A stretch of DNA of 64,000 bases. Origin: Paludibaculum fermentans (GTDB lineage: Bacteria > Acidobacteriota > Terriglobia > Bryobacterales > Bryobacteraceae). The notes below the pieces were generated by a model. The model was not told where the DNA came from, did no database searches, and saw nothing but the letters and a program-made list of their open reading frames with translations. The position numbers and the translations under genes are program-made. The stretch is from positions 8,881,501-8,945,500 of the forward strand of contig NZ_CP063849.1 in the NCBI RefSeq assembly GCF_015277775.1, given 5' to 3'. Below are positions 18,512-20,485 of this stretch, one piece after another. Position 1 is the first letter of the stretch. Each line of letters starts with the position of its first letter.

Positions 18512-20161
18512 TTACCAGTAGCGCCAGTCGCCTGTGTACCAGACCAGTGCAGCCAGGGCCGCGTTGGTGACGGCGTGCGCCAGGACCGCGTCGCCCAGCC
18601 GCCCGCGATGAATCTGGACCAGGGCGTAGGCCGCACCCGCGACGATGCCGGCCAGCCATCTTGATTCGTGCATAGCCCCAAAGGCGATGGACGAGACCAG
18701 GAAGGGCAGCCAGGCGAACTTGCGCCAATCCACCGACTCAAAGTCGGCATCGGCCACCCGGCGCATGAGGTATCCGCGAAAGGCCAGTTCCTCGGCGATC
18801 GGGACTGTCACGACGGCGGCCAGCAGCCGGCACACCACCCAGAAGACCTGCAGCGGTCCCGGCATCGAAACGAAACCAGGGGGCAGGCCGGCCCGGGCTT
18901 CCGCGCCGCTGGGCGTGGTCCAGACCCAGAGGGCGGCTACCGCCAGCCCCACCAGGGCCGCCACGGGGCCGAAGCGCCAGTCCACGCGGGCATACTCCTT
19001 GCGGAAGTACCAAAGCGTCACCACCGCGGCCAGCAGGCGCAGGGGGTAGAGCCACTCAAAGTCAGCCGAACCGGCGCGCGAGATGATGGACGCGGCCAGG
19101 ATCGCCAGGAACGGCATCAGGTAAGCCGCCACCGGATTGGATCCGTCCGCGATCTCCTCCAGCGGCTCGGCTGCACGTGCGGAGGCGTGCTGGAACATCT
19201 CGATCCGGCGGGAGAGGACGCAGAACAGGATGGCGGTGGAGATGAACGCAATCCACCCCGCCTCGGAATGGAAGCCGCCCAGGGCGATCCGGTCCGCGCC
19301 GGCGTGCCCGATGAGGATCAGCGCCGCGATGCGGAGCGCGTTCAGCGTCCAGATCAACAAGGCGCCCGCGGGAATCAGGACCAGCGCCGCCGGAACGCGG
19401 TATTCCTTGCGGAAGAAGAACAGCCAGGCCACGCTGAACGCCAGGAACAGTCCTACTCCTTCATAGCCGGAGCAGGCCGGGTCGATCGTGACGTTAAAGC
19501 GCTCGGTTCCGATCACCGCTTTTGCCGGATTCGAGGTCAGGCCGGGCAGAATCGGCTGAAGAATAAAGCGAACGACCTGAAAGGTGATCGCACTGGACCC
19601 CTTCCAGAGGGACGCGGCTGCCGGCCGGGCCGCCGCGGCCACGAAGGCCACCGCCAGGCCCCAACCCCAGCCCCAGCCTACCGAGCGGAGCAGGGCGAGC
19701 CAGAAGGCCTTGGGGAGCACCGCCAGCACGAGGCAGGCGACCCCCACCAGTCCGCTGGCCAGCCAGGCTACCGGAAGCCAGATCGGGACACTGCGGGTTG
19801 AACCGGCAAAGAGCAGAGGGGAAAGCGCGGCAAATGTGGCCATGCAGACGGCGTGCGCTGCCAGCAGCGGAACCAGCACCGGGCCGGTCTTTGCACGGAA
19901 CACGGCCAGCAGGCCGCTCGCTCCGCCCTGGCTCAACATGAGAGCCGTAGCGAAGAAGGCGGCTGAAGCCCGCACCAGGATCGCACCCGCATTGCGAATC
20001 CACGTGGCCAGCCCACCCTGCGCCGAAAGATCTTCCGTGTCGAGCAGGACGCTCGCAATCAGTAGCTCTGCGAGTAATAGCGCTATAAGAATTGCAAATC
20101 GGAGGGCGGACTGAGGCAGAGATCCGAAATGTACATCATTTCGGCGAACGGGAGACGACAT
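18512..20161 (-). CDS. Exosortase E/CPBP protease fusion (VPEID-CTERM system)
   Basis: 549 residues and mostly membrane. Residues about 1-325 are an exosortase with the catalytic triad expected for the family: Cys230 in DPACSGYEG, Arg277 in TLNALRIAA and His298 in GGFHSEAGW. Residues about 345-549 are a CPBP intramembrane protease (Abi family) with EE457-458 in PIAEELAFRGYLMRR, His498 in FGAMHESRW and His529 in LAHAVTNAA. This fusion is the known exosortase E/protease architecture associated with VPEID-CTERM substrates, and a 54-residue protein with that sorting tail is encoded just upstream on the same strand. The exosortase cleaves and transfers sorted proteins at the inner membrane; the role of the CPBP half is unknown. 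The start has a poor ribosome-binding site, so coupling to the small gene is possible. Confidence 0.93.
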   Translation of the reverse strand: MSSPVRRNDVHFGSLPQSALRFAILIALLLAELLIASVLLDTEDLSAQGGLATWIRNAGAILVRASAAFFATALMLSQGGASGLLAVFRAKTGPVLVPLLAAHAVCMATFAALSPLLFAGSTRSVPIWLPVAWLASGLVGVACLVLAVLPKAFWLALLRSVGWGWGWGLAVAFVAAAARPAAASLWKGSSAITFQVVRFILQPILPGLTSNPAKAVIGTERFNVTIDPACSGYEGVGLFLAFSVAWLFFFRKEYRVPAALVLIPAGALLIWTLNALRIAALILIGHAGADRIALGGFHSEAGWIAFISTAILFCVLSRRIEMFQHASARAAEPLEEIADGSNPVAAYLMPFLAILAASIISRAGSADFEWLYPLRLLAAVVTLWYFRKEYARVDWRFGPVAALVGLAVAALWVWTTPSGAEARAGLPPGFVSMPGPLQVFWVVCRLLAAVVTVPIAEELAFRGYLMRRVADADFESVDWRKFAWLPFLVSSIAFGAMHESRWLAGIVAGAAYALVQIHRGRLGDAVLAHAVTNAALAALVWYTGDWRYW

Positions 20162-20253
20162 GAGAGGGTGTCAGGCGGAAGGGGCGGACGCAGGACTCAG
20201 GCGAGTCCCTTGCACCGGCGCAGGCGCCAGTGCAAGGAGACTAGCAGGAAAAA

Positions 20254-20418
20254 CTACCGGCGGCGGCTACGCAGAACCAACACCGCACCCGTCAGAAGGG
20301 TGAGGGCGCTGGTGGCGGTCGCACCGCTGATTTCAGGAACGGACTGAGCGGATGCCACAACCCCAAGGCCAACCATGAGGCAGAGCAACCCGAAGGACTT
20401 TTGAACCAAACGCGTCAT
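20254..20418 (-). CDS. VPEID-CTERM sorted mini-protein, 54 aa
   Basis: A short gene encoding 54 residues. Residues 1-24 are a signal peptide (MTRLVQKSFGLLCLMVGLGV then VASA). They are followed directly by the sorting tail VPEISGATATSALTL, a hydrophobic segment ending LVLR and the basic end SRRR. This is the tripartite pattern (motif, membrane helix, arginine cluster) of VPEID-CTERM proteins, with Ser for the Asp of VPEID. Between the signal peptide and the tail there are almost no residues, so hardly any mature domain is left. A Shine-Dalgarno (GAGGAG) precedes the ATG. It lies 92 bp before the exosortase E/protease gene on the same strand, its expected processing enzyme. Confidence 0.87.
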   Translation of the reverse strand: MTRLVQKSFGLLCLMVGLGVVASAQSVPEISGATATSALTLLTGAVLVLRSRRR

Positions 20419-20455
20419 AGCTTGAACTCCTCTGTAAGAATCGGACCGTTCCGAA

Positions 20456-20485
20456 ATGCTATTAGGTACGGGCCCTCCCCGTCAA
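20456..20485 (-). promoter_or_regulatory. Sigma70-type promoter of the VPEID-CTERM/exosortase unit
   Basis: Read on the minus strand: TTGACG at 20485-20480, an 18-bp spacer, then TAGCAT at 20461-20456. TAATAG at 20464-20459, with a 15-bp spacer, is a less likely alternative. Transcription would start near 20449, giving a leader of about 30 bases that contains the GAGGAG box of the 54-aa gene. Predicted by eye only. Confidence 0.5.

Follow-up and report, generated by a model that had tools for sequence, protein, structure and literature searches.

A probable sorting substrate with almost nothing to sort

What does an exosortase do when its partner substrate carries hardly any protein? The locus that raises this question lies in a 64,000-nucleotide stretch of DNA from the soil bacterium Paludibaculum fermentans (hereafter the window), where two neighbouring genes are encoded on the minus strand, on which all features given below lie. 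The upstream gene (20254..20418; MTRLVQKSFGLLCLMVGLGVVASAQSVPEISGATATSALTLLTGAVLVLRSRRR) encodes a 54-residue protein that begins with a signal peptide (residues 1–24; 20347..20418), assigned by eye and with the A-x-A rule, a simple rule for the signal peptidase cut, which places the predicted cut after ASA. The whole predicted mature segment consists of three residues, QSV (20338..20346), and leads directly into the sorting motif PEI (20329..20337), a C-terminal hydrophobic helix delimited by eye (residues 31–49; 20272..20328) and the basic C-terminal cluster RSRRR (20257..20271). This layout bears out an earlier note on this DNA, which had read the product as a signal peptide followed almost at once by a sorting tail, a helix and a basic end. 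A ribosome-binding site, GAGGAG (20427..20432), precedes the ATG of the small gene, and a sigma-70-like promoter, TTGACG-18-TAGCAT (20456..20485), matches at 9 of 12 positions, with both elements conserved in two relatives.

The small gene lies 92 bp upstream (gap 20162–20253) of xrtE (18512..20161), which encodes a 549-residue fusion of exosortase E with a CPBP (glutamic-type) intramembrane protease. XrtE scored 215 bits on TIGR04162 (cut-off 150), which places it in the exosortase E/protease family; it also passed TIGR03008 and TIGR04178, and its CPBP half scored 54.3 bits on PF02517 (cut-off 22.4). The exosortase residues Cys230 (codon 19472..19474), Arg277 (19331..19333) and His298 (19268..19270), said in the earlier note to be intact, are indeed present and were invariant in an alignment of 26 XrtE sequences; in a looser set of 33 rows that includes fragments, C230 was found in 29, R277 in 33 and H298 in 30. 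CPBP proteases carry the motifs EExxxR, FxxxH and HxxxN, and all three occur in XrtE, with Glu457 and Glu458 (EExxxR; codons 18788..18793), Arg462, Phe494, His498, His529 and Asn533 invariant in the same 26 sequences. The window neighbours, which by appearance are a GntR-type regulator, a nitroreductase-like and an aminotransferase-like protein, include no recurrent partner.

Signal peptide, motif, helix and basic C-terminal end together make up the VPEID-CTERM architecture. The small protein scored 11.7–12.4 bits on the corresponding model, TIGR04161 (cut-off 33), so the VPEID-CTERM name given to it in the earlier note rests on resemblance and position: layout and location speak for the label, the model score of 12.4 bits against it. 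Nine acidobacterial PE[I/L] proteins tested on TIGR04161 gave a best score of 29.9 bits, and none of ten other small proteins tested reached 33 bits (best 30.6). As regards PEP-CTERM, the protein has PEI, not PEP, and TIGR02595 is absent from its family matches.

The pair is conserved across the class

A search with TIGR04162 at 1e-20 matched 32 of 399 class genomes (best three candidates per genome scored). Two of these (G185 and G225) were CPBP-only, which left 30 genomes with 33 fusion loci, counting two doubtful fusions, one split over two frames (G293) and one with a stop at a contig end (G189). The small gene was followed with a profile, A1, made of 28 small proteins taken from neighbours of the fusion, the first 12 of them through a motif search of its flanks. 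A1 matched at least 69 places in 34 class genomes (best 16 candidates per genome scored); absences and copy numbers refer to these searches, copy counts being lower bounds, and high scores among the profile's own rows are no test of it.

The small protein was found in 30 of 30 fusion genomes and in 4 of 369 others (Fisher 3.5e-41, which ignores kinship). Three of these four (G004, G101 and G052) each have another exosortase, and the match in the fourth (G222) is weak and probably spurious. A copy adjoins the fusion in 29 of 33 loci, always on the same strand (29/29), and the nearest copy lies within 545 bp of the fusion's matched stretch; the copy in G302 was counted though doubtful, having no in-frame start before the motif. 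Since neighbours of the fusion were the source of A1, adjacency is partly given by construction, which does not hold for the absence of the small gene from 365 other class genomes. An improved motif scan, which recovers 54 of 55 known copies with three surplus matches, found no copy at the four remaining fusion loci and no small substrate at nine CPBP-only loci. Outside the class, a phylum-wide search for the fusion (best four per genome) returned CPBP-only matches, all from one genus. The small gene can be multiplied, with five copies in a row in G213, six around xrtE in G001 and as many as eight A1 matches in a single genome (G246), one or more of them doubtful. The earlier note had suggested looking for the pair in relatives and had named absence of the small gene beside homologous fusions as evidence against its reading; what we found is adjacency in nearly all loci and retention in every fusion genome. 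Together, these results demonstrate that the small gene and XrtE are a real, conserved pair.

Selection on the small protein

The small gene evolves as a protein, with dN/dS of 0.10–0.31 in ten pairs of small genes and of 0.16–0.18 when the window gene is compared with its two nearest relatives. Invariant columns are P, E and one helix alanine in 28 rows, and P and E alone in 38. By the A-x-A rule the predicted mature part spans 0–8 residues (median 4) in the 28 relatives, and a few further family copies have, by eye, about 9–13 residues before the motif. When the open frames of the at least 69 A1 matches are measured whatever their start, 44 are of 90 residues or fewer, 21 fall between 91 and 165, and four are longer: one of 824 residues lies opposite a 742-residue open frame, one of 450 overlaps xrtE, and those of 496 and 573 (G246:C44 and G222:C81) are probably spurious. 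At G133:C8, G246:C63 and G296:C127, one match each continues past the tail.

Across nine close pairs, identical positions amounted to 189/220 in the tail, 131/207 in the signal peptide and 14/35 in the mature residues, and the predicted mature peptide varies even between close relatives (QSV, RIA and, by eye, AVPA). Its sequence therefore seems, from these alignments, free to vary. Conservation is lowest in these mature residues, which counts against a signalling peptide with a set sequence; a short released peptide, as suggested in the earlier note, may still be the product. Mature parts are longer outside Bryobacteraceae, at about 15–50 residues in family f10 and 7–33 in Rhodobacterales (both by eye), with a 205-residue frame in Novosphingobium, so the emptiness belongs to a lineage.

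A probable single substrate for XrtE in the genome

In the own genome, A1, a profile able to match tails alone, gave one match at E <= 10 and no second PEI-type substrate (best 150 of 189 candidates), and TIGR04161 found nothing above its cut-off of 33, the best of seven weak matches, which include the window gene, scoring 17.7 bits. Longer VPEID-CTERM proteins, for which the earlier note had suggested scanning the genome, were thus found neither above the TIGR04161 cut-off nor by A1. The genome does hold at least 34 PEP-CTERM matches in frames of 166–965 residues (best 150 of 191 scored), and a separate second exosortase on a plasmid. PEP-CTERM matches in short frames in G261, G004 and G101 look like pieces of longer proteins (five of five examined).

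A single target whose gene adjoins that of the enzyme is the mark of a dedicated system, and this arrangement was found here (among the same best 150 of 189 candidates). With no longer PEI-type substrate found in the own genome, XrtE appears dedicated to the empty one. The competitor or titrator role offered in the earlier note finds no support, as the best 150 of 189 candidates in the genome yielded no second PEI-type substrate at E <= 10; the small protein may still influence the 34 PEP-CTERM proteins, for which there is another exosortase.

A lipid hydroxylase beside copies in relatives

Clustering of 607 neighbouring genes revealed one recurrent partner, at ten loci; PF04116 (fatty acid hydroxylase) is matched by nine of its ten proteins, all except a fragment. 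A PF04116 survey of 30 of the 34 genomes with an A1 match (G163, G272, G052 and G222 were left out) gave 38 matches, 12 of which have a small gene within 3 kb, where about 0.11 would be expected (Poisson 7e-21, ignoring kinship). Eleven of the 12 are within 67 bp of the small gene's open frame, one overlapping it by 52 bp, and the twelfth lies across xrtE. They are spread over 10 genomes, 7 genera and two families, and they cluster on a tree of 35 of the 38 rows (three fragments dropped), with 3 changes compared with 10.2 in shuffles. The hydroxylase profile A3 was built from those beside a small gene, and high scores of its own rows are no test. On NF052566, the OlsE model, four of four tested hydroxylases scored 65–74 bits (cut-off 475), which falls short of membership. 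The own genome and the congener G198 have no PF04116 match, and 20 of the 30 surveyed genomes have no hydroxylase beside a copy; the hydroxylase is therefore an accessory at most.

The same tree holds a second clade (G177:C56, G075:C111, G296:C90, G133:C64 and G195:C2; support 100/99), in which five of five hydroxylases adjoin full-size PEP-CTERM proteins (four by scan, G296:C90 by eye), four of these neighbours being homologous at 30–40% identity. In total, 17 of the 38 hydroxylases adjoin an exosortase substrate, empty or full-size. Since full-size proteins are among them, the hydroxylase does not by itself argue for a cargo-free purpose.

A class-wide search with the first hydroxylase reached at least 15 further genomes (best six per genome), and seven of these genomes were examined. 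In G006 the hydroxylase follows two tandem cargo-free PEP proteins and an ordinary PEP-CTERM protein; one cargo-free analogue scored 25.7 bits on TIGR02595 (cut-off 16), and this genome (91% complete) gave no exosortase at 1e-3. In G356 a cargo-free PEP protein in an 88-residue frame lies 13 bp from the hydroxylase, and in G057 one in a 60-residue frame lies 760 bp off, with another at the end of a longer frame. No cargo-free protein was found near the hydroxylase in G052 (contig end), G216, G204 or G278. Related hydroxylases elsewhere in the phylum (best seven per genome) had such a substrate within 1.5 kb in 0 of 30 loci, 29 of them outside the class and one at a G004 contig end, and the background of PEP-type tails, counted over 574 kb of other loci, was about 9. 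The hydroxylases beside empty and full-size exosortase substrates are a genetic pointer that hints at a lipid.

Other partners and expression signals

In G299 an unfused exosortase (PF09721, 152 bits; TIGR02602, 130 bits, cut-off 105.55) is followed, after 57 bp, by the open frame of a dispersed copy. In G069, G282 and G335, copies with a PELNP motif adjoin a membrane protein. One of these three proteins is HTTM-like (26.1 bits, cut-off 27.7), and the two others are its homologues; HTTM proteins include the SDP-maturation protein SdpB. Other recurrent neighbours in the gene clustering were, by appearance, ABC-F-like, TonB-dependent-receptor-like and permease-like. No recurrent receptor or immunity gene was noticed among the clustered neighbours, which were judged by sequence and were in part annotated.

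The gap between the small gene and xrtE folds at -39 kcal/mol (z -4.8), with a core hairpin at 20208..20237; two close relatives have different sequence in this gap. Among 16 foldable gaps including that of the window, compared without shuffles or length correction, 12 folded at -19.9 kcal/mol or lower and four of 21–40 bases at -2.0 to -5.7. A plausible reading of the hairpin is that it allows more substrate than enzyme to be made.

A proposed role and its alternatives

We propose that the 54-residue protein is, with high confidence, a dedicated cargo-free substrate of XrtE. The whole model, in which XrtE passes a few residues of this substrate to a membrane lipid, we hold at a probability of roughly 0.45. 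In brief, signal peptidase would remove the N-terminal helix, Cys230 of XrtE would cut the protein at the PE motif, and XrtE would hand what is left, a few residues, to an amine-bearing membrane lipid to give a peptidyl lipid, as has been proposed for archaeosortase A. The CPBP half, whose catalytic motifs are conserved, would then clear the left-over helix, much as the earlier note had suggested, or release the product, and tailoring of the acceptor or the product may, in relatives, fall to a lipid hydroxylase resembling OlsE or to an HTTM-like membrane protein. The transfer of residues to a lipid by XrtE, taken as a step of its own, we infer tentatively; the added cases of a hydroxylase beside exosortase substrates raised our estimate for it. 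The other estimates were kept, because finding a hydroxylase next to full-size proteins also makes a purely cargo-free reading less convincing. That disposable, encoded mini-substrates serve to cap a membrane lipid, as a lipopeptide or aminolipid tailored by the OlsE-like hydroxylase and the HTTM-like protein, is a speculative and somewhat unlikely extension.

Among the alternatives, the small protein could stay uncleaved and, as a two-helix hairpin, bind XrtE in the role of regulator, chaperone or subunit, its PEI docked in the active site without being used. The N-terminal helix, more often identical in the nine pairs (131/207) than the mature residues (14/35), and the adjacency of the two genes on one strand fit such a role, which we nevertheless consider unlikely: as many as eight profile matches occur per genome (G246, at least one doubtful), dispersed copies sit by the hydroxylase instead of XrtE and one beside an unfused exosortase, cargo-free PEP proteins accompany the same kind of hydroxylase in G006, G356 and G057, and longer versions with a real mature part exist in f10 and Rhodobacterales. 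We think it distinctly unlikely that the protein is a precursor from which signal peptidase, exosortase and CPBP protease excise a short secreted peptide, a pheromone or antimicrobial. The CPBP family takes its name from CaaX protease and bacteriocin processing (PMC11980579), tandem arrays have differing linkers, and the HTTM-like membrane protein adjoins three copies; however, the predicted peptide has 0–8 residues that differ even between close relatives, and the clustered neighbours showed no recurrent receptor or immunity gene.

Titration, in which the small protein occupies XrtE and so limits the sorting of other proteins, would profit from a hairpin that could allow much more substrate than enzyme, but the genome search (best 150 of 189 candidates) turned up no further PEI-type substrate and the 34 PEP-CTERM proteins have another exosortase, which makes it improbable. 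About 50 residues, two hydrophobic helices and tandem copies also recall a small hydrophobic toxin of a type I toxin–antitoxin system with a chance likeness to a sorting tail, a reading made very improbable by the invariant PE and the near-perfect co-occurrence with an exosortase. Toxin and phage families gave sub-threshold matches to the small protein and no family match, the holin family PF07332 reaching 16.6 bits (cut-off 28.4). The longer mature parts outside Bryobacteraceae would suit a functionless, degenerate remnant of a longer substrate, and we give this the least credence, against dN/dS of 0.10–0.31 in ten pairs and a gene kept in 30 of 30 fusion genomes and multiplied to several copies.

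To our knowledge, the acceptor to which bacterial exosortases attach their substrates has not been established. A natural substrate of about 50 residues, about three of them mature, is small enough to be followed whole by mass spectrometry, and the presence of the pair in a cultivated organism would make cut site and acceptor directly testable. Should the product turn out to be a modified lipid, one class of 'protein sorting' systems would need a new description, in which the sorting tail would be a tool of lipid chemistry, not of protein display.

Relation to known systems

The closest known system is XrtE/VPEID-CTERM (TIGR04162 and TIGR04161), which shares the enzyme family, scored here above its cut-off, and a small PE[I/L] substrate beside the enzyme. 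On Rhodobacterales plasmids, 57- and 88-residue proteins near xrtE are annotated VPEID-CTERM, so annotation already knows of short substrates as such. Of 11 plasmid regions examined from 13 matching records, eight carry a small PEI gene immediately upstream of xrtE (five annotated hypothetical, one VPEID-CTERM, two with no gene listed). In Leisingera the small PEI gene lies about 1.7 kb downstream and bears the VPEID-CTERM annotation, Novosphingobium has its PEI-ending 205-residue frame downstream, and a motif scan of the Rhodovulum xrtE region found no PEI substrate. The acidobacterial substrates differ in scoring below TIGR04161, in their 0–8 predicted mature residues (28 relatives) and in forming arrays and dispersed copies, some beside a lipid hydroxylase. 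A search of the open-licence literature for an exosortase together with VPEID-CTERM or a fatty acid hydroxylase found none, and the brevity of VPEID-CTERM proteins may have been remarked on before; what is new here is the tandem and dispersed copies and the hydroxylase beside some of them.

Canonical PEP-CTERM/EpsH exosortase systems share the motif, helix and basic cluster; their motif is PEP, and their own-genome matches lie in 166–965-residue frames, with cargo-free PEP proteins in G006, G356 and G057. One enzyme with one target encoded by an adjacent gene is also described for rhombosortase/GlyGly-CTERM (PMC3237569), whose protease is unrelated to XrtE. In the account of PMC11980579, MrtJ/JDVT-CTERM likewise joins a CPBP protease to a single substrate as a dedicated pair, and for the myxosortase MrtX, also a CPBP enzyme, cutting of a C-terminal sorting tail has been shown; in both systems, the CPBP protease is the sorting enzyme, whereas that of XrtE sits behind an intact exosortase.

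Two comparisons bear on the lipid. OlsE hydroxylates ornithine lipid (PMC11631085), and the neighbouring hydroxylases match PF04116 (9/10 tested) and, weakly, the OlsE model (4/4); at 65–74 bits against a cut-off of 475 they are relatives of OlsE, not OlsE itself. Archaeosortase A of Haloferax and Methanosarcina belongs to the same superfamily and is likewise linked to membrane-lipid genes: as described in PMC7157517, artA adjoins pssA and pssD, and an aminolipid, archaetidylethanolamine, is the proposed acceptor. The substrate discussed there is the S-layer glycoprotein, whereas that of XrtE is cargo-free and its associated lipid gene encodes a hydroxylase.

Small substrates and hydroxylase neighbours

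In the second clade of PF04116 (fatty acid hydroxylase) proteins, a full-size PEP-CTERM protein, bearing the canonical exosortase sorting tail, adjoined the hydroxylase in all five cases, four found by scan and one by eye (fetched loci, each with its own coordinates: L139 1300-2250, L141 1275-2201, L142 1557-2450, L144 3115-3972 and L146 3031-4044). Cargo-free substrates, which have few residues between signal peptide and sorting motif, also occurred near hydroxylases. In the related genome G006, two such proteins with a classical PEP motif lie in tandem, followed by an OlsE-like hydroxylase (L165 5828-6204 and 6431-7306); no exosortase was found in this 91% complete genome searched at 1e-3. 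Further cargo-free PEP-type proteins lie close to the same kind of hydroxylase in G356 (L166 6804-7070) and G057 (L170 6394-6576). In G195, hydroxylase gene pieces flank a small substrate gene on both sides in an odd order (L115 5551-6703). The small protein of G052 carries PEF instead of PEI (L122 693-1175), and a relative of the hydroxylase is encoded on a different contig.

Membrane proteins and exosortases

PELNP-motif copies in three genomes were each adjoined by an HTTM-like membrane protein (L074 10250-11674, L128 5427-6962 and L116 5332-6744), and these three proteins are homologous. In G299, a cargo-free substrate stands behind an unfused exosortase (L117 1976-3063). The exosortase and CPBP parts of xrtE are separate in G293, in two frames (contig C2, 24639-25875); the gene may truly be split there, or the arrangement may stem from a frameshift or from an error in the assembly. 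In the window genome, the only TIGR04178-detected exosortase other than XrtE is encoded on the 55-kb plasmid (51604-51879); the 34 PEP-CTERM matches (150 of 191 candidates scored) are chromosomal, unlike this second exosortase.

Plasmid-borne genes outside the class

On Rhodobacterales plasmids, small PEI genes directly upstream of xrtE were annotated only as hypothetical proteins at five loci (L098 9316-9525, L099 9178-9372, L100 9167-9382, L101 9159-9386 and L102 9159-9386). On a Novosphingobium plasmid, an xrtE-like match is followed by a 205-aa open frame ending in PEID, a helix and a basic end (L096 9015-9632), possibly a full-length substrate.
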